Shown piece by piece: positions 21,246-55,889 of a DNA stretch of 64,000 nt. How positions within the stretch are numbered: the first letter of the stretch is position 1; each line of letters starts with the position of its first letter. Below the pieces are notes generated by a model, which had not been told where the DNA came from, searched no databases, and saw only the letters and a list, made by a program, of their open reading frames with translations. Origin of the DNA: Halomonas sp. HL-93 (lineage in GTDB: Bacteria; Pseudomonadota; Gammaproteobacteria; Pseudomonadales; Halomonadaceae); assembly GCF_900086985.1 (NCBI RefSeq), contig NZ_LT593974.1, positions 2,046,001-2,110,000 on the forward strand. Direction: 5' to 3'. A program made the translations under genes and the position numbers.

Positions 21246-21321
21246 TGGGGTGGATGATGGGGATCGAACCCACGACCACCGGAGCCACAATCCGGGGCTC
21301 TACCACTGAGCTACACCCACC
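21246..21321 (-). tRNA. tRNA-His (GTG), copy 2 of the tandem
   Basis: A 76-base gene with encoded CCA and the extra 5' G typical of tRNA-His (GGTGGGTG pairing with CATCCACC). The anticodon loop GATTGTGGC gives GTG. The sequence is identical to the copy at 21371-21446. Last gene of a four-tRNA minus-strand operon. Confidence 0.97.
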
Positions 21322-21370: not shown

Positions 21371-21446
21371 TGGGGTGGATGATGGGGATCGAACCCACGA
21401 CCACCGGAGCCACAATCCGGGGCTCTACCACTGAGCTACACCCACC
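21371..21446 (-). tRNA. tRNA-His (GTG), copy 1 of the tandem
   Basis: A 76-base tRNA-His identical to its neighbour, with encoded CCA and anticodon GTG. Spacer between the two copies is about 49 bases. Confidence 0.97.
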
Positions 21447-44327: not shown

Positions 44328-44363
44328 GCCACTTGCTTTATTAGCTAGTGGCCACTTTTATAT
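44328..44363. terminator. Terminator hairpin shared by the MFS gene and the tRNA remnant
   Basis: GGCCACT and AGTGGCC form a seven-base stem with a loop of about 13 bases, followed by CTTTTATATATTTT on the plus strand. On the minus strand the stem is followed by TTTTTT. It matches in form, but not in loop sequence, the hairpin near 53165 on the other side of the island. Confidence 0.75.
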
Positions 44364-44413
44364 ATTTTGGTCGGAGCGACAGGATTCGAACCTGCGACTT
44401 TTGCAACCCCATT
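44347..44413. repeat. Left end of the 67-bp direct repeat (att site) with tRNA-Pro 3' fragment
   Basis: Identical at 66 of 67 positions to 53179-53245; the one difference is at 44399. It includes the last 46 bases of tRNA-Pro(GGG) (44368-44413: CCA end, acceptor 3' strand, T arm, variable region and anticodon stem/loop 3' side), then stops. The 5' part of the tRNA is missing, so this is the duplicated attachment site, not a working gene. Confidence 0.95.
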
Positions 44414-45152
44414 CCGTTTACCCCAAATTTAAGCAGGAACTAACAGAAACAAGAAGCAACATTAAAATATTGAAAATATTAAATTAATCATGAATTATAG
44501 TTTTCCCATTGTTTCCCTCTGTACCCTATTATATTCAGCTCCTGCTACCTATTTGCTACCTAGAAAATAAGAGACCAAGCATGGAAACCACGGGAAAATG
44601 AAGCTAACCGGCAAAGCGCTTGAGCAGCTTATCAATCAGGGGGAGATGTCGGCGGGAATGTTACGTAGAAGTGAGTGCATCAGCCGGCACGAGCACGACG
44701 AGCTGGCATACAAAGTATAATCAAGGGCTGCCAATTTAAGCGCACCTTGGCCCTGAACGGTGAAAGCGTCAACGTCACCCCACCCTAGCCCAGGTCTATA
44801 TTAGAATCGCCTTGTAAGCGAACTGCTTAACAACGATCATCGAAACCTCTGATATTGCACTGATGGTCGACCAGCTGTCAGTCTGCCTTATGCTTTTGGC
44901 TTAGCAAGAGAACTGAAAGTACGAAGCATTTCAACATTCCATCACCATGCTCATTCGACCCAAGAGAACGCTTTCTCAATTAAGCACCTTAACAGGCAGC
45001 ACAATTAGGCTTGTGCGGAGCCCAAACCGGAAAACGTAATCTATCTGCTTTTGTGTCCGACATAAATCGTGACAATGCACTGGTTGAGCGGCACTTCGAA
45101 CCCTCGGATCAATTCTCAGGCATGCTAAAACATTAATGCCTCAAGTCTAATT
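44414..45152. other. Island left arm, no intact gene
   Basis: A 739-base stretch, AT-rich near 44450-44570. No intact integrase or transposase can be read. A 40-codon plus-strand frame begins at ATG 44598 and a one-base frame change near 44718 would extend it to 44788. The repeated motif TGCTACCT occurs at about 44547 and 44560. I take it as decayed integration-end DNA. Confidence 0.5.
44598..44788 (+). pseudogene. Possible frameshifted small gene remnant in the island
   Basis: The frame from 44598 reads MKLTGKALEQLINQGEMSAG and on to ...DELAYKV, with the stop at 44718-44720. A one-base shift just before this stop continues with IIKGCQFKRTLALNGESVNV and stops at 44786-44788. The two pieces join smoothly as one small basic protein. 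I do not recognise the family, so the gene status is uncertain; a phage-derived remnant is plausible. Confidence 0.3.
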
Positions 45153-47942
45153 TTATTTTACATGCGCTTTAGTTGGTGCATTCGCATGCTCGTTTAACCT
45201 GACCGGCCATAGGCGCCTGCGAACCCAGGTTTCGATTTCCAAAATCACCAGCACCGCCACTCCGGCTAGACAAGCTAAGACCAGCATTTCCAGGGATAAG
45301 GCACTAGTTTCAAAAGTGTTATGGAACCAAGGCAAATAAGTAAACAGAAGTTGCAAAACTACGATTGCCGCTACTGCAAGTAATACAATAGGAGTGCCCA
45401 AAACACCACGAAGCGTAATAGACGGTGTGTCGAGATAGCGCACAGCGAACAGATAAAACACCTCCATGGCTACTAAAGTATTGACGGCCAGGGTGCGAGC
45501 TATACTTTGGTCGTCATAGTGGTGCATGGCAAAGAACCAGGCGCCGAAAATGCCTGTTAGAAACAGTAGTGACACGAAAATTACCCGCCAGATCAAGAAG
45601 CCTTGCAGCAAGGACTGTTCTCTCGGCAGGGGCGGGCGTTTCATGACATCCGGTTCTGGTGGCTCAAAAGCCAGGGTCATTGCCAATACAACAGCGCTGA
45701 CCATGTTGACCCAGAGAATCTGCAGCGGCGAAATCGGTAACGCGAGTCCCAGTAATAAAGCGATGATAAGGCTGATGGACTCACCGCCATTAATTGGCAG
45801 CATGAACGCAATGCCCTTTTTCAAATTAGTATAAACCGATCGCCCCTCGCGAATGGCCGCAACTATGCTGGCAAAATTATCGTCCAGCAATACCACGGAT
45901 GAGGCCTCACGCGCTGCTTCTGATCCCTTCACACCCATGGCAATTCCCACATCGGCCCGCTTCAGGGCCGGGGCGTCATTGACACCGTCTCCGGTCATGG
46001 CAACAACCCCATGCTGTGCCTGGAGGGCTTCGACCAATCTCAGTTTATGCTCCGGGCTAGTGCGCGCGAACACATCTACTTCAGTCACTAGTTGTTGCAA
46101 CTCATCAGTGGTGAGATCATCCAAATCCATTCCGGTCAAAACACGCTCGCTGTTACGCAGCCCCAGTCTTCTCGCAATGGCCCCCGCCGTCAGAGCATGA
46201 TCCCCAGTAATCATCTTTACTCGGATACCCGCCGCATGGCAGTCGGAGATGGCGCGTATTGCTTCTTGCCGGGGCGGATCCAGCAACCCCACTAGGCCCA
46301 GAAGTTCTACGCCGGTGCCAATATCCTCCACTGCGAGATCGGCCGTGCCTCGGGAAACGGGTTTCCGGGCCAAGGCTAGTACCCTCAATCCATCCGATGC
46401 CAAATCGGCAATCATCTGGTCCCACCAAGAACGCTCAAGGGCAGCGGTACCATCGTTTTCTGTCACTTCCACCTCGCACATGTCCAGGATGCGCTCCGGA
46501 GCACCCTTGACGTACACCATGCTGTGGCCATGGTGATCATGGTTAAGAGTGGCCATAAAACGGGTCTGGGTGTCGAAAGGGATTTCATCTCTGCGGGGCC
46601 AATCATGTGCACTACCTTCAATATCAAACGCCGCCTTGTGAGCAAAAACTTTCAGGGCTGCCTCCATAGGATCGCCCTGAATACGCGGCTGCTTTTCTCG
46701 AAAATCAAGGTGGGCATCGTTGCAAAGCCCGGCGGCCCGAGCCAGCTCCTCCAGCGCCCCGGTGATATCCACGGGCTTGCTATTCTGGCTTACGACCCCC
46801 TCCAGTTCATAACCCTCACCGGTTATGTCAAGTCGCTGCTTGCCCACCACTGCTGTGGTCACCACCATTTCATTGCGAGTGAGCGTGCCGGTTTTGTCGG
46901 AACAAATTACTGATACCGCCCCCAGTGACTCAAGGACGGGCATTCGACGTACCACGGCCTTTCGTCTAGCCATCTGGCGGACACCTATCGCCAAGGTGAT
47001 GGTCAGTATGGCCGGTAATCCCTCTGGAATAGCGGCCACCGTCAGCCCTACAACAGCCATGAACAGCTCTCGGAAAGGCAGGTCACTGAAGACCAGCCCC
47101 CCGGCAAATATGACCGCACCGGCAATGACCACAATGATGGACAAGATTTTGGCAAAGCGGTCCATCTGTTCTACCAAGGGTGTTTTTAGAGACGTGGTCC
47201 GTGCCAACAGACCAGAGATACGACCAATCTCCGTCGACGCTCCGGTGCGAACCACCACGCCACGCCCGGTACCCGTAGATACCATGGTGCCGGAAAACGC
47301 CATGCTGGTTTGGTCACCCAGCGCCGCCTCTTTCTCCACCGGTTCCGGGGATTTCTCTACCGCTACGGATTCACCCGTAAGGATGGCTTCCTCGATCTTC
47401 AAGTTATGGCATTTTTCCAGGCGGGTATCCGCCGGTACGCGATCGCCGGGTTCCAATAGCACCGTGTCTCCGGGCACCAGGTCAGCGGCGTTAATTTGAT
47501 GCTGGCCATCCTCACGGACTACACGTGCCTTCGGTGCCAGCATGTGTCCAATGGCGGACAATGCCTGCTCGGCCTTGCCTTCCTGGATAAAGCCCACAAG
47601 CGTCTGGATCACAACCACAGCCATGATGACCCCAGCATCTACCCAGTGGCCAAGTGCCCCTGTAATAGCCGACGCAGCCAAAAGAACGTATATCAGGAAG
47701 TTGCGGAGCTGGCGAATGAGTCTAGCAATGGGCCCGCTTGCCTTTCCTTCCGGAAGACGATTAGGGCCATAGACTGCAAGTCGCGCGGCGGCTTCCTCAC
47801 CACTAAGAGGCGCTGTTGCTTCCAGTTGCTCTCTGGTACCGAAGGCATCCACTGTGTGCCAGTGCTGTTCTGGAGACTGGACGGGTAAGTTATCAACGGA
47901 CAACACAGGTACCTGCCCGGCGCTCAAGAATTGCGAGAGCAT
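45153..47942 (-). CDS. P2-type cation-transporting ATPase, last gene of the arc operon
   Basis: A 929-residue P-type ATPase. Visible are LTGES (189-193), PEGLP in M4 (306-310), phosphorylated Asp in DKTGT (349-353), [17 protein letters not shown], and about ten membrane helices. M5 keeps the Asn and Glu of calcium pumps (NGGES), and M6 keeps Asn (VNMVSA), but the M6 Asp is replaced by Ala, so calcium specificity is doubtful; sodium or another ion is possible. The start overlaps arcC by 50 bases (ATG 47942); an internal GTG at 47903 would shorten this to 11. It lies in the arc island. Confidence 0.88.
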
Positions 47943-48798
47943 CCCTCAGCCTACCAATGCCACTGACACCACCGCTTTCGGCGAAGTTGCCCGCTGCCGC
48001 CATTTTGGGATCCATTGAGCCGGCCGGCAGGTCAAGTTCTCTGGCTTCAGCAAGAGTTAATTCATTGATCGGTTCAGCGGAGTCCATTCCGAAATCGCGA
48101 TAGATGGCATCCACATCTGTGAGGAGTAATAAGGCATCGGCACCCAGTTGGCGGGCCAGCAGTGCGCTCGCAGCATCTTTATCGATCACAGCTTCCACGC
48201 CGATCATGCTGCCATCATCAAGGCGAAGAACGGGAATGCCCCCGCCCCCTGCGCAGATCACCACAACGCCCTGCTCCAGCAGCAGTTTCAGCACCCGCAT
48301 GTCGGGTATCTCCAAAGGTTTGGGCGAGGGCACGACTCGCCGCCACTTATCACCGTCCTGAGCTATCTTCCAACCTGCCGCTTCAGCTCTGGCTTCGGCC
48401 TCTTCTCTGCCATACACTGGACCGATAAATTTCGTGGGTTTGCTGAAAGCAGGATCGTCCTTGTCTACCACTACCTGGGTAAGCAGAGTTGCTACCGGCC
48501 GGTCATGTTCAAGAGCATTTTCCAGCTCCTGTTCGATGACATACCCAATCATGCCTTCGGTTTCGGCGCCAAGCACGTCCAATGGATAGGCTTCTTCAGA
48601 TTTGTAAGCCGCACCCTGCAGCGCCAGCAGGCCTACCTGCGGGCCGTTGCCATGAGTGATCACCAGCTGATGGCCTGCCCGGACGATTTTGGCCAGTGAT
48701 TCGGCGGCAACCTTCACATTTGCTCGTTGAGCCTCAGCGGTCAGTGGTTCACCGCGACGCAACAGGGCATTGCCGCCCAGAGCTGCAACTACCAGCAT
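47893..48798 (-). CDS. arcC: Carbamate kinase
   Basis: A 301-residue carbamate kinase, opening [17 protein letters not shown] with the phosphate-binding glycines, then [15 protein letters not shown] and CAGGGGIPV. It makes ATP from carbamoyl phosphate and ADP, the third step of the arginine deiminase pathway. Gene order here is arcA-arcB-arcC-ATPase; the stop overlaps the ATPase start. Length is typical. Confidence 0.96.
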
Positions 48799-48813
48799 GT
48801 GTGACTCTCCCTA

Positions 48814-49815
48814 TCAGCTTCCAAGAGTGGCAACGAGAACCGCCTTGATGGTATGCATTCGGTTCTCCGCCTGATCAAATACGATTGAAGCGGGGCTTTC
48901 GAAGACTTCATCAGTAACTTCCATGGCATTAATCTTGAACTCCGCCTCCATCTCCTTCCCGACAGTGGTTTCGGTGTTGTGGAAGGCTGGCAGACAATGC
49001 ATAAATCTTGCCCTGGGGTTACCGGTTTTCTCCATCAGAGCCGTATTCACCTGATAAGGCTGAAGCAGCTTGATCCGTTCCGCCCACTTTTCCTTAGGCT
49101 CACCCATTGACACCCACACGTCGGTATAGACGAAATCCACGCCCGCGACAGCGGCATCAGTGTCTTCAGTGATCATGATCCTCGCGCCGGTGTCAGTGGC
49201 AATGGCCTGGGCTTCCTTCTGAATTGCCTCGCTTGGCCAGCAAGCTTTAGGGGCACACATACGGACATCCATACCCATCTTCGCACCCCCGATCAGCAGG
49301 CTGTCGCCCATGTTATTTGCGGCGTCGCCGATGAACACAAACGCTACGTCCCGCAGCGGCTTTTCAACGTTTTCCTGCATGGTCAGGAAGTCGGCCAGTA
49401 TCTGAGTAGGGTGGAATTCGTTGGTCAGGCCATTATAAACGGGCACGCCAGCGAACTTGGCCAGCTCCTCAACCACCGACTGGCCAAACCCTCGGTACTC
49501 TATTGCGTCATACACCCGGCCTAGCACCCGTGCAGTGTCTTTCACCGACTCTTTATGGCCAATATGAGTACCTGTTGGCCCCAGGTAGGTCACCCGGGCT
49601 CCCTGATCAAACGCTGCAACTTCAAATCCCACCCTGGTTCGGGTGGAGTTTTTTTCGAAGATCAGCGCAATGTCTTTGCCTTGTAACTGCGGTACTTCTG
49701 TGCCGGCGTACTTGGCAGTTTTCAGGTCGGCAGAAAGCTTGAGCAAAAAACTTATCTCACGGGGAGTAAAGTCCCGTAGCGTCAGGAAATGACGATTCTT
49801 GAGGTTAAAAGCCAT
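48814..49815 (-). CDS. arcB: Catabolic ornithine carbamoyltransferase
   Basis: A 333-residue transferase. The carbamoyl-phosphate motif [13 protein letters not shown], then [15 protein letters not shown], and HCLPAFHN with the ornithine-site Cys are visible. In this operon it runs catabolically, splitting citrulline to ornithine and carbamoyl phosphate for ArcC. Its length and the [13 protein letters not shown] start match the catabolic ArcB rather than anabolic ArgF. Gaps to its neighbours are only about 15-17 bases. Confidence 0.95.
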
Positions 49816-49832
49816 GTACTTCTCCTTTACTG

Positions 49833-51062
49833 TCAGACAGCATCCCTGATGGTTGGGCAGCTCATGCAGCGTCCGCCGCCCCTGCCGCGGCCCAGTTCAG
49901 CACCAGGAATAGCCAGCACTTCTATGCCGGCCGCTCCCAGGGCGGCGTTGGTGTCGTCATTACGGTCATAACCGACAACTACCCCGGGGCTCAGCGCCAG
50001 CACGTTGTTACCATCGTTCCATTGCTCCCGCTCACGCTCTTGCGGGCTATTGCCGCCTGTTGGCACAACCTCCAGCGTCGGGAATCCGAGAACCTCGGCA
50101 ACTACTTCAAACAGGTGGCGGGAATCCTGTATGAAGGCCAATGTTTTGGCGCCCTCGCCCGGCCTCAGGTCATAGCAGACCACCGCATCTGCCACCTCCG
50201 TGAAAGCGGTCACAACGTTTCCGCCACAAAAGGTAAATACCGTATCCAGGTGCATTGCTGAGCGGTTTTTTGGCAACTGACAGGCAATAACTCGTTCTAC
50301 CGTACCGTCGTCGAACAGTGCTTTTGACAGCTGGCCAATGCCTTGAGGGGAGGATCTTTCGCCCATACCCACCAGGACCGTGCGATTACCCAGAGGCATG
50401 ATATCTCCCCCCTCCAGAGTGGCCAGACCATGGTCTTTCAGGGGGTCCCCCCAATGTACTTTCACTTTGCCCGCAAATTTCGGATGAAACTTGTAGATGG
50501 CGTTCATCAAAAGGGTCTCCGGCTTTCGGGCTGCCCAATACATGGGGTTCAGTGTTACCCCGTCGTAAACCCAGGCACTGTTGTCCCGGGTGAAAAGAAA
50601 GTTGGGCAGCGGGGGCAACACGAATCCGAAATGCCCAAGATGGTTACCAAACAGCCCAGTCGGGTCAAAAGGAAGATCCCCGACCTCCAGGCCGCCAATC
50701 AGGAATTCGGCCAGATCTTTACCAGGCAGTTCATTCATCCAGGCCTGAAGGTCCGATACCATGCCAACGCCGATGTAGTTCCAGTTGATACGATGGCCCA
50801 GAACCCATGCGCGACCCTCCGTAATTTCCAGCGTTTCTGCCAGAAGGTCATTAACATCTAGAACATCAATGCCGCGGCTCCGCATCAGATCGGTAAATAC
50901 ATCGTGGTCTTTCTGGGCCTGCTTTACCCAGAACACATCATCAAAAAGCAGGGAATCGCAGTTCGAGGGCGTTAACCGACGGTGGGCCAAGCCAGGCCGA
51001 CAGACAATGACCTGGCGCAGGATCCCGGTTTCAGAGTGCACTCCAATGCTTTGTCCAGACAT
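49833..51062 (-). CDS. arcA: Arginine deiminase
   Basis: A 409-residue enzyme from ATG 51060-51062, with AAGGACG upstream; nine codons more are open before it. Active-site motifs: [12 protein letters not shown], the HxDT motif in [11 protein letters not shown], and the nucleophile Cys in [11 protein letters not shown] near the C-terminus. It hydrolyses arginine to citrulline and ammonia. Second gene of the minus-strand operon, 23 bases after the yfcC-like carrier. Confidence 0.96.
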
Positions 51063-51085
51063 GGCAAACGTCCTTTTTCCAAGCG

Positions 51086-52552
51086 TCACAGCATAGTTCC
51101 GACGCTGATAATCACGGTGATAAACACGGTTAGGATGAGCAGCAGAGGCCAGATAAAGGCGAGCCAGCGATCGTAAGACACCCGCCCGATGGCAAGGCCA
51201 CCAACTACAACTGCAAAAGTGGGATTGATCAGATTTACAAGACCGTTCGCTGACTGGTAGGCCGTCACCACGAGATCTCGTCCCACGTCCGCAAAATCGG
51301 CGAGCGGTGCCAGAATCGGCATGGAAAGAACAGCCAGCCCGGAGGACGATGGCACAAAAAAGCTCATGCCGATCTCAATCCAGAACATGAGATTGATGAA
51401 AGCGAGCTCTGGCAGACCGCCTAGCGATGCTTCTGCGCTGTGGAGGATGGTATCGGCAATCATGCCCTGCTCCATGATCACCACAATGCCACGGGCTAGC
51501 CCAACCACCAGAGCAACACCGAGAAGATCTCGGGCACCATCCACAAAGCTGCCGGTCAGTTTCTTTTCACCCAGTCGGGCAATGATGCCAATAACAATAG
51601 CGGCACCAAAAAACAAAGCGCCCATTTGCGCCATCCACCACCCCTGGGACGAAACACCCCAGATCATGACAACAAAGGCCAGCCCAAAGATAATCAGCGA
51701 AATGATCTGAGTCTTGGTGAGTCTAGCGCTATGGGTATTTTCATCATGTCCCTGTATGAACAGTTTGCGGTGGGCGTCCCACTGTTTTGCAACCACCGAG
51801 CGGGACGGGTCTGCTTTAACGCGGTGGGCATACCGCATGACATAGGCAATGCAGATCAGCAGACCGCCAATAAGCAGAATAAAACGCAGCACGATACCAT
51901 CGGTAAACGGGATGCCTGCAGCATTAGCCGCAATAACGGTGGCGAAAGGATTGATAGTGGAGCCCAGTACGCCTATCCCCGCGCCAACCAAAATGATAGC
52001 GACACCGGTCACCGCGTCGTATCCGGCCGCGAGTATGACGGGAACAAGAATGGCGTAGAAAGCAAGAGTTTCTTCAGCCATCCCATAGGTTGTTCCGCCT
52101 AGTGCAAACAACGTCATCAGGATAGGAATCATCCAGATTTCATGCCCCTTTAGGTGGCGCATAGCGCTACGAATGCCGGTATCAATGGCACCGGTTGCAT
52201 TCATCACGCCGAGAAAGCCCCCTAAGAACAGCACAAATAGTGCGACATCAATGGCATTCGCAGCGTAACTCTCGGGATCGTAGAATCCGGCGGTTGGGGC
52301 CAGCATGACCTCAACAAATCCCTGAGGATTGGGATCAACGGTTTGATAGGTACCTGGCACTGCCACTTCACGACCGACCTCTTCATTCATAGTCCGTTCA
52401 TACTGCCCTGCCGGGATAATCCAGGTCAGAGCAGCAATCAGCATAATCAGACAAAAAAGAATGGTGTAAGCCGTGGGGAAGCGCGAAGCTAGGTTGTTTT
52501 CTAAGTTTACTGACGCTTTTGGATCTTCAGCCACGATATGTCTCCAGTCCAT
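51086..52552 (-). CDS. YfcC-family carrier, probable arginine/ornithine exchanger
   Basis: A membrane carrier of about 488 residues if ATG 52550-52552 is the start (the open frame goes to 52636; the true start is uncertain because no good Shine-Dalgarno lies at either place). About 12 hydrophobic segments, with [20 protein letters not shown] and [19 protein letters not shown] typical of the YfcC/C4-dicarboxylate-carrier-like superfamily. It occupies the position of arcD in classical arc operons, so arginine uptake with ornithine export is the likely job; this is inferred from context. First gene of the operon. Confidence 0.85.
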
Positions 52553-53178
52553 AATCGCATTGTGCAGACAAGCTCTCTCCTGGAACTTCAAATCAAGTCT
52601 AGCACTGGAATTCCAGTATTGGGTCGACCAAAACACGGAGCAATCGGCTATCAGCTTCCAGGACGCACCTACCTACTTCAATGTGGTCCTATTATTCGTG
52701 CTCAACTTCTCCAATCGTCCCGGTAGGCTTGTCTTCCGTCATCGTAAGAACAGTCGAACCGGGAATCTGATAGCCGATCGCTTGTCGCAGTGCTTCTTAA
52801 TTAGGAACACTAGACTGGCAATCTAATGGGTTCTGTGCGCTAAGAAACATAAGGAGCAAGAAGAGAAAAACCTTTTCTCCCGAGATAGGATAAAATGCGG
52901 CACCGAACCGTACTGGCACCCCAGGCTCCAATTCTTGGGGCAGGCCGAGCGTGACGACTGGGCAGTGGGAGGATATTACGAACTTTGAGCGTAATTAGAA
53001 CAAGCGTGATAGCAGATAGTTGGGCGTAACTCATCCAGATTCGCAATTAGACAGCTTTACATTCGATACTTGAAGTGATGTCTTAAAGACCGAAAAGGAA
53101 CCGTTCCAACTAGGTGTTTCGTACGCTTGTCACCTAGCAACAAGCACACATAAAAACGGCCACTGTAGCAATGAGCTA
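52553..53178. other. Island right arm, promoter region of the arc operon
   Basis: About 626 bases with no gene I can support. It contains a perfect 14-base palindrome ACTGGAATTCCAGT at 52604-52617 (candidate operator upstream of the carrier gene) and GAGAAAA/TTTTCTC at 52863-52879. No FNR/ANR box of the TTGAT-N4-ATCAA form is present. Confidence 0.5.
52604..52617. promoter_or_regulatory. 14-base palindrome upstream of the arc operon
   Basis: ACTGGAATTCCAGT is a perfect palindrome, 52 bases before the likely carrier start. It does not match the ArgR box (TNTGAAT-type) or an FNR box. A candidate operator for an unknown regulator. Confidence 0.4.
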
Positions 53179-53245
53179 AGTGGCCACTTTTATATATTTT
53201 GGTCGGAGCGACAGGATTCGAACCTGCGACCTTTGCAACCCCATT
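53179..53245. repeat. Right end of the 67-bp direct repeat (att site)
   Basis: Same 67 bases as 44347-44413, 66 identical. It includes the 3' half of the intact tRNA-Pro and about 21 bases beyond its CCA end. The intact tRNA at this end and the fragment at the other place the insertion on the 3' side of the tRNA, as tyrosine integrases do. Confidence 0.95.
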
Positions 53246-53276
53246 GCAACGCGCTACCAAGCTGCGCCACGCTCCG
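53200..53276 (-). tRNA. tRNA-Pro (GGG), the island's integration target
   Basis: A 77-base cloverleaf: acceptor CGGAGCG/CGCTCCG, D arm GCGCAGCTTGGTAGCGC, anticodon stem TTGCA/TGCAA with loop ATGGGGT giving GGG, T arm CAGGTTCGAATCCTG, encoded CCA. Intact, so integration restored the tRNA. Confidence 0.97.
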
Positions 53277-54835: not shown

Positions 54836-55333
54836 TTAAAGCTCTTTCTCATCACGGCAGGAACCCGGCAAATATTTTTCGTCAAGCGCATTGCCTGCCC
54901 CAGTAGTGGTTCGACAAGACCACTGAAGAGAACCCTCTGAAGCCGTAGACTCCATCACCACCCATTTACCCGCAATAGCGCTGTTGGAATTGTCACTCAT
55001 CTCCATAACAACACGGGCATCGTAATTTTCTTCGCCAGGCCAGATGCCAATATAGGCCACAAAACTGTCGTTATTGATCTCCCCTCCGTTTCCGCTCCTA
55101 TCGCTATCTTCAGGCAGACCAGCCTCCTCATTACTATCGGGGAAGCGGCCTCGTACCGAATAAAACTCACTCATGGTCGTTTTATACGCCGATGCCAGAT
55201 TAAATGCCTCAGATACCTGGGCACGGGCGGTATAGTTCTGATACTGAGGAATGGCGATAGAGGCCAGTACTCCGATAATGGCGACCACAATCATTAGCTC
55301 GATTAGCGTAAAGCCTTGCTGGATTTTCTTCAC
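54836..55333 (-). CDS. Type IV pilin (PilA-like), second of the tandem
   Basis: A 165-residue prepilin. Short positively charged leader, then the PilD site before Phe in [20 protein letters not shown] and the hydrophobic assembly helix. The C-terminal domain has two cysteines (about WSCRTT and PGSCRDE) that would form the D-loop disulfide. Its N-terminal 45 residues are almost the same as those of the pilin upstream, but the rest differs. It lies 85 bases from that pilin on the same strand. Confidence 0.93.
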
Positions 55334-55418: not shown

Positions 55419-55889
55419 TTAGTCTTTACATCCCGCAGGAATACGATTATCAGCTATAGCATTTTCTCCATCACCACCGCTGCATACCCACCCTTCTTGG
55501 GGATCTTCGGTTTCCAGAAGCATAGTGCCGCCTTCTAATGCACTATCCGTTTCAAACGTTACAGTGATAGTGCCAGTATCCTCTTCGAATGCATATGAAG
55601 CATTTTGCACATATCTACCTGCTGGCTCATCGTCGGCTTCGACTAAGTCATCGACATCATCAGTTGATGGCATATCTCCCTGAAGTGAGTATTGCTCAGC
55701 AATATCTGCGCGCATGCCTGCCGTCACCGACAGTCCTTCACTTGCCTGGGCGCGGGCGGTGTAGTTCTGATATTGCGGGACGGCAATGGACGCCAGTACG
55801 CCGATAATCGCCACCACGATCATTAGCTCAATCAGCGTAAAACCGCCCTGTTTTTTGTTACCTACTGCCGGTTGTGCAGAATGCTGCAT
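55419..55889 (-). CDS. Type IV pilin (PilA-like), first of the tandem
   Basis: A 156-residue prepilin with a longer leader ([16 protein letters not shown]), then [20 protein letters not shown]. Two C-terminal cysteines (WVCSGG and PAGCKD) would form the D-loop. Unlike its neighbour it is very acidic in the middle ([13 protein letters not shown]). Pilins are processed by the PilD peptidase encoded about 3.2 kb downstream and assembled by PilB and PilC. Which of the two is the major pilin is not clear. Confidence 0.93.

Follow-up and report, generated by a model that had tools for sequence, protein, structure and literature searches.

Introduction

In the ACME of staphylococci an arc operon is carried on a mobile element with ccr recombinases and with orfX as its site. 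The locus described here is likewise a mobile arc operon, but it belongs to an unrelated element that appears to have used a tRNA gene and a tyrosine integrase; its five long reading frames are arc genes and an ATPase, with no ccr gene among them, and its site is a tRNA gene and not orfX. For proteobacteria, PMC3281130 describes Tn6097 of Paracoccus, where genes for ArcD, ArcA, ArcB and ArcC lie in a composite transposon with two copies of ISPfe2, so that mobile arc genes are common to both cases while the vehicle is a transposon there and a tRNA island here. The ends of our locus also resemble those of the tRNA-targeted islands mapped in the Islander database (PMC4383910), where a regenerated tRNA at one end and a displaced fragment at the other serve as endpoints and the integrases are of the tyrosine lineage. 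The endpoints are alike, whereas the integrase is here only a stub, and a search that requires an integrase gene could therefore miss such an island. PICI and capsid-forming phage satellites enter the comparison through two related genomes (G014, G003), in which elements at this tRNA, with integrases of the same family, carry packaging and head genes or a primase. Primase, packaging and capsid-hijacking genes, present in these sister elements, are absent from the five long frames of our island, as are the relaxase and type IV secretion genes of an ICE. A search of titles and abstract openings, with most subscription journals outside its scope and weak to that extent, brought up no paper on an arc island at a tRNA gene or on this site in halomonads.

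The window, by which we mean the whole 64,000-nucleotide stretch of Halomonas sp. HL-93 that was analysed, very probably contains a decayed integrative element (genomic island) of about 8.8 kb, inserted at tRNA-Pro(GGG) by a tyrosine integrase and carrying arginine fermentation as its cargo. Events of this type are well known. The locus illustrates how a chromosome can gain a complete ATP-yielding pathway at a tRNA gene, and its attachment ends and the fossil of the integrase are still readable; related bacteria hold very different cargoes at the same site. It was compared with 82 genomes of congeners, the window's own included, whose genus appears to be Vreelandella. Vreelandella was formerly included in Halomonas.

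Attachment ends and integrase remnant

The two ends of the island comprise the following features.

44347..44413, minus strand: distal attachment core, a 46-nt tRNA-Pro 3′ fragment (44368-44413) with the 21 nt downstream of it (67-bp repeat; relatives with the same fragment end)
44414..44580, plus strand: element-specific attachment arm, from the tRNA fragment to the integrase start (73-87% identity in seven genomes, six of them aligned)
44553..44562, plus strand: TTGCTACCTA motif, proposed arm-type integrase binding site of the distal end (shared with fragment-side loci)
44581..44636, plus strand: tyrosine integrase gene stub, start codon and about 56 bases with the frame broken and the rest gone (tblastn with the integrases of relatives, and alignment)
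53127..53136, plus strand: TTGTCACCTA motif, proposed arm-type site on the tRNA side, at a distance of 63 nt from the 3′ end of the tRNA
53179..53245, minus strand: tRNA-side attachment core (67-bp repeat)
53200..53276, minus strand: intact tRNA-Pro(GGG), the integration target (ARAGORN and Rfam RF00005)

The first-pass annotation had described an intact tRNA and a 46-base fragment within a 67-bp direct repeat, and this holds: 44347-44413 and 53179-53245 are identical at 66 positions, the sole mismatch being T at 44399 and C at 53231. ARAGORN calls a single tRNA-Pro(GGG), at 53200-53276, and none at 44347, so that the left copy must be the last 46 nt of the tRNA followed by 21 nt; between 40000 and 58000, Rfam at its gathering threshold detects nothing besides this tRNA. 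Two matches to the core pattern are present in the window versus none in 100 shuffled sequences. The concern that the repeat might be a dispersed sequence is answered by the 4.14-Mb genome, where a match of 99-100% over the repeat occurs at these two places only, the remaining 17 matches being either at most 78% identical or pieces of about 30 bases or shorter. Direct 25-mers that occur twice in the window number 82, and the first 20 outside the 67-bp pair all come from two tRNA-His genes, which lie in tandem (21246-21320 and 21371-21445) and share long identical stretches. Joining the island flanks in silico restores exactly one tRNA-Pro(GGG). The locus thus has the intact tRNA and the displaced 3′ fragment, as a direct repeat, by which a tRNA-targeted island is recognised.

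Next to the fragment, the sequence from 44414 to 44636-44639 (up to 226 bp) matches the element end of three congeners (G027, G035, G041) at 86-87%, and that of four others (G046, G077, G057, G003) at 73-81% over 153-222 bp. A full integrase gene begins at the matching end in six of these seven, all but G077, in which the similarity to the integrase gene ends early and a relative of P0001 was not found. P0001 is the 479-residue integrase of G041, with domains PF13356 and PF00589. An alignment of the window with six of these relatives shows a common boundary after the tRNA fragment, then the arm and then, at 44581, the start codon of the integrase. All that the window retains of an integrase gene at the attachment site is about 56 out-of-frame bases, for which reason we class the element as a degraded tRNA-targeted island. 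Together with the full genes of the six relatives, this bears out the earlier proposal that the integrase has been lost. At E values of 1e-30 or better P0001 has relatives in 25 of the 82 genomes and none in the window's genome, which has eight PF00589 matches in all. Fragments of the tRNA are found in at least 23 genomes; in twelve of these 23 (G003, G004, G008, G014, G027, G035, G041, G046, G047, G048, G057, G072) a P0001 match begins no more than about 270 bp from the fragment and is directed away from it, with an identity of only 42% in G008, G047 and G048, and in the other eleven there is no P0001 relative beside the fragment. G002 and G074 have a relative (43-45% identical, partial in G074) about 1 kb from the intact tRNA, and in the other 11 of the 25 genomes the relatives are located elsewhere. 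PF00589 matches lie just inside the tRNA fragment in seven of ten genomes searched. IMG/VR holds no close relative of the integrase, its one match being 26% identical.

A short motif, TTGYYACCTA, picked after the fact from looking at the alignment, is present in the window at 44553 and 53127, and a third time at 55855, outside the island. After removal of identical sequences and of six loci duplicating the window, 8 of 11 fragment-side loci, the window among them, carry it; in seven of the ten others it lies 125-140 nt from the fragment. The distinct tRNA-side sequences number 39, of which 8, again counting the window, contain the motif. The seven besides the window have it at a distance of 64-65 nt, as compared with 0.065 expected for the set by shuffling; 31 of the 38 other sequences lack it.

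Cargo genes and their regulation

Between the two ends lie five genes and two stretches without an intact one.

44637..45152, no strand: stretch without a recognisable intact gene (no listed reading frame of 80 aa or more; relatives give very short matches only)
45153..47942, minus strand: type II (cation) P-type ATPase, 929 aa (PF00122, PF00689, PF00690; TIGR01494 above, TIGR01522 below cut-off)
47893..48798, minus strand: arcC, carbamate kinase (NF009008 and TIGR00746 above cut-off)
48814..49815, minus strand: arcB, ornithine carbamoyltransferase (NF003286 and TIGR00658 above cut-off)
49833..51089, minus strand: arcA, arginine deiminase (NF002381 above cut-off, PF02274)
51086..52636, minus strand: arcD-like carrier of the DcuC/YfcC family, as a mechanical reading frame (PF03606 above, NF008611 below cut-off)
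52637..53178, no strand: stretch upstream of arcD (no FNR/Anr-like box; last 166 bp resemble the neighbour of the G018 fragment)

A carrier, arcA, arcB, arcC and a P-type ATPase had been read on one strand, and the family models agree with all five, each on the minus strand. It had also been said that these genes make up everything between the repeats, which must be qualified, since two flanks of 739 bp (44414-45152) and 542 bp (52637-53178) contain no recognisable intact gene. The claim of a complete pathway is sound for ArcA, ArcB and ArcC, each of which exceeds the cut-off of at least one family model (below cut-off are TIGR01078 for ArcA, 460.5 against 489.1, and NF002470 for ArcB, 543.9 against 545), and less so for the carrier, a DcuC/YfcC-family protein that satisfies PF03606 but scores 305.8 against 500 with the NCBIfam YfcC model NF008611. 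The carrier gene is co-linear with the arc genes in most relatives compared. Its homologs align from residues 7-74 onward, and the true start is probably at 52552 or 52534 rather than at the mechanical one. By the biochemistry of these families, arginine taken up by the carrier would be converted to citrulline and then to ornithine, ammonia and CO2, with a yield of one ATP through ArcC. Such ATP could be supplied when respiration is limited, and the P-type ATPase may be one of its consumers.

In G018 (L040, 4714-4959) a sequence like 53013-53178 adjoins a tRNA fragment, and a further, partial copy lies near the intact tRNA. An inverted repeat upstream of arcD (52639-52662 and 52759-52782, 24 nt, 88%) brackets sequence that resembles the tail end of some unknown protein. 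When three short peptides of the degraded flanks were searched against the loci compared, they matched only the window's own copies and, at chance level, others.

GC content and codon use, which had been suggested as a test of foreign origin, proved uninformative, the island genes being indistinguishable from 36 neighbouring genes. An FNR/Anr-like box (at least 9 of 10 matches to the consensus, within 420 bp before arcD) is present in 20 of 74 loci, a few of them near-duplicates, as against 1.0 expected by shuffling, and perfect boxes occur in G002, G001, G015 and G075. Before the window's arcD no such box was found, the best site having 7 of 10 matches, and expression at low oxygen is for that reason uncertain. 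Scores of only 7-8 are likewise found in V. boliviensis and in two closely related Marinobacter loci (L071, L073), so the absence is not unique and need not reflect a loss within the island. Past 52591 the region upstream of the window's arcD has nothing in common with that of Marinobacter.

The tRNA site in related genomes

All 82 genomes match the tRNA together with the adjoining inositol-phosphatase-like gene, or part of this arrangement, a few of them perhaps through a paralogous tRNA only. A displaced tRNA 3′ fragment is present in at least 23 genomes including the window's, two of the 24 fragments listed being in G046. Among the matches listed, 19 of the 24 fragments start at tRNA nt 29-35, in the anticodon loop, and five at nt 17-24. 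One contig of G046 (C54:195502-279780) contains two fragments and the intact tRNA, perhaps as a result of tandem insertions.

Distances from the tRNA to ppnN were obtained from 64 genomes in which the place of the tRNA was taken, weaker, partial and unlisted matches being left out. The ppnN gene is on the tRNA contig in 49 of these. In 46 of the 49 it is encoded downstream of the tRNA and on the strand opposite to it, at distances of 187 bp to 146 kb. Of the exceptions, G031, a poorer assembly, has ppnN at 404 kb and on the strand of the tRNA, and in G005 and G042 the gene is 5 kb to the other side. Taken over the 47 genomes with ppnN downstream, the distance has a median of 12.2 kb. G016 gives the lower extreme, a nearly empty site with ppnN 187 bp beyond the tRNA match, and in G073 other genes precede a shared MFS gene. 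The comparison with an empty site that had been recommended, made here with congeners and not within the species, revealed nearly empty and differently occupied versions, from which the empty site is deduced.

The other cargoes are diverse. The G077 element (C1:2757942-2781362; L175, L176) encodes, according to a Pfam search to which ten proteins, P0001 among them, were submitted, NarG, NarH, MoaA, MoeA and a NarX-like sensor, as well as a flavohaemoglobin-like protein, two MFS carriers and a Usp protein. G057 has the BREX genes for BrxA, BrxB, BrxC, PglX, PglZ and BrxL, G014 has a terminase, a portal, a head protease and a head protein, and G003 a primase; four small proteins from the G014 and G003 elements found no match in the search. 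A narG match exists in 45 of the 82 genomes, and in 13 of the 23 tabulated with all three genes it lies between the tRNA and ppnN. A position between the tRNA and a fragment was observed for G077 only; in G046, G047 and G075 narG is located past a fragment, and the window's genome has it away from the tRNA site. A P-type ATPase beside the same tRNA in G017 and G070 was considered as a version of the window's gene and rejected at 48% identity.

We suggest, tentatively and with more doubt than conviction, that the genus as a whole uses the interval between tRNA-Pro(GGG) and ppnN for exchange, with satellite, defence and anaerobic-energy cargoes brought in turn by a single lineage of integrases and the energy cargoes (nitrate respiration, or arginine fermentation with a cation ATPase) becoming fixed when the integrase decays; the arc genes here may answer to a switch other than the FNR/Anr box of some relatives. 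The site is worth checking in related halomonads for newly arrived genes of satellites, defence and anaerobic metabolism.

Relatives of the arc genes and the ATPase

At a threshold of 1e-20, arcA has 12 copies in 11 of the 82 genomes and none in the other 71. Compared with the window's copy, one set is 83-88% identical and another 54-57%. The window's copy is the only one of the 12 at tRNA-Pro(GGG): eight of the eleven others have no tRNA-Pro in their 20-kb context, and the remaining three are on contigs different from the one with tRNA-Pro(GGG). An arc operon at the same place without repeat or fragment, which the first-pass annotation had named as evidence against an island, is accordingly not seen among the 12 copies in these 82 genomes.

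Of the 80 named loci retained, those of Marinobacter halophilus, Marinobacter sp. BW6 and M. pelagius match best, at 87-89%. In a tree of four proteins from 32 taxa (31 of 88 arc loci and the window), the window's arcDABC groups with these three and G002 at a support of 0.91, while G009/V. boliviensis, G075, G001 and G015 form a separate group (0.997) with V. utahensis beside it (0.82); the arc blocks of G009 and V. boliviensis LC1 (L074) are at zero distance. At the DNA level, 24 of 25 named loci are 71-80% identical to the window over most of the arc block, L087 being without arcB, and L120 matches the window in arcA only. None of the 25 matches either island flank, and the homology to Marinobacter stops near 52591. 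No tRNA was found in 21 of 23 arc loci with flanks of up to 10 kb. Marinobacter lutaoensis (L092) has a tRNA-Pro(CGG) at 2805-2881, 5.7 kb from arcD. In Pseudogemmobacter bohemicus a single contig bears three arc blocks (L115, L116, L117), all equally similar to the window.

Relatives of the ATPase with 91-92% amino acid identity are present in G015 and G039, where the last third of arcC precedes the ATPase gene and nucleotide identity is about 90% through the junction, extending up to 45150-48192 of the window (L201 9675-12711 and L202 2084-5132); no other arc gene was matched in these pieces. The junction therefore existed elsewhere in the genus, and its recurrence in two congeners indicates that the five genes probably form a block. 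ATPases of 49-61% identity are beside arc genes in a few of the 88 loci: Halopseudomonas pelagia L076 (61%), L099 and L123 (52%, upstream), L121 (51%) and L088 (49%, upstream). In plasmid records neither flank was matched, and the whole island gave one match, of 77% over 52% (arc region, 47901-52492), on a 1.83-Mb replicon of Halomonas sp. PA16-9, which places arc genes also on a large replicon.

Origin of the island

The course of events that we favour begins with recombination by a tyrosine integrase at the anticodon loop of tRNA-Pro(GGG), in which the incoming core would have restored the tRNA and displaced its original 3′ end by 8.8 kb. With the element would have come arcDABC and the P-type ATPase; the integrase would have decayed afterwards, so that the island could no longer move by its own enzyme. 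That the genes came as one mobile unit, as had been proposed, is made probable by the co-linearity of arcDABC in other genera at 71-80% and by the arcC-ATPase junction at about 90% in two congeners; the unit presumably entered through the integrase whose stub remains. Against the account as a whole we count the two unexplained flanks of roughly 0.5 kb, a GC content and codon use that are not foreign, the absence of the motif from most other tRNA-side sequences, and the eleven fragment-bearing genomes without a P0001 relative at the fragment. In a different history, against which we lean though it may well apply, an older tRNA island with another cargo, satellite-like as in G003 and G014, received arcDABC and the ATPase by homologous or IS-driven recombination that replaced the integrase and the old cargo. 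It would fit with such an addition that arcDABC elsewhere sits away from tRNA genes (the 21 of 23 loci above), that the arcC-ATPase pieces of G015 and G039 are on 19-20 kb stretches without a tRNA, that the G015 piece is near frames judged by eye to be transposase-like, and that the Marinobacter homology ends short of the attachment end; general DNA searches with both degraded flanks, on the other hand, gave no pointer to an IS.

It is very improbable that the arc genes are ancestral at this position and the tRNA fragment an unrelated duplication. Their base composition and codon use do resemble those of the neighbours, but most congeners have no arcA match and the other 11 copies are not at this tRNA, the site is almost closed in G016 and occupied by other genes before the shared MFS gene in G073, and the element arm exactly adjoins the tRNA fragment. 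Nor is the island likely to be still mobile in trans through an integrase encoded elsewhere: both cores and both motif sites have been kept and the genome has its eight PF00589 matches, yet none of its proteins is related to P0001 at the threshold used. Insertion by an integrase that decayed in place remains for us the best account of the ends and of the stub between them.

Other repeats in the same genome

The window's genome has a second island-like stretch (G000:C1:3689762-3711961; L003, L004), where a tRNA-Pro(CGG) adjoins a 383-aa PF00589 frame and a 45-base exact copy of the 3′ end of this tRNA lies 22 kb away. Within the window, a 122-bp direct repeat of 80% identity (55209-55330 and 55738-55859) involves two neighbouring small frames.
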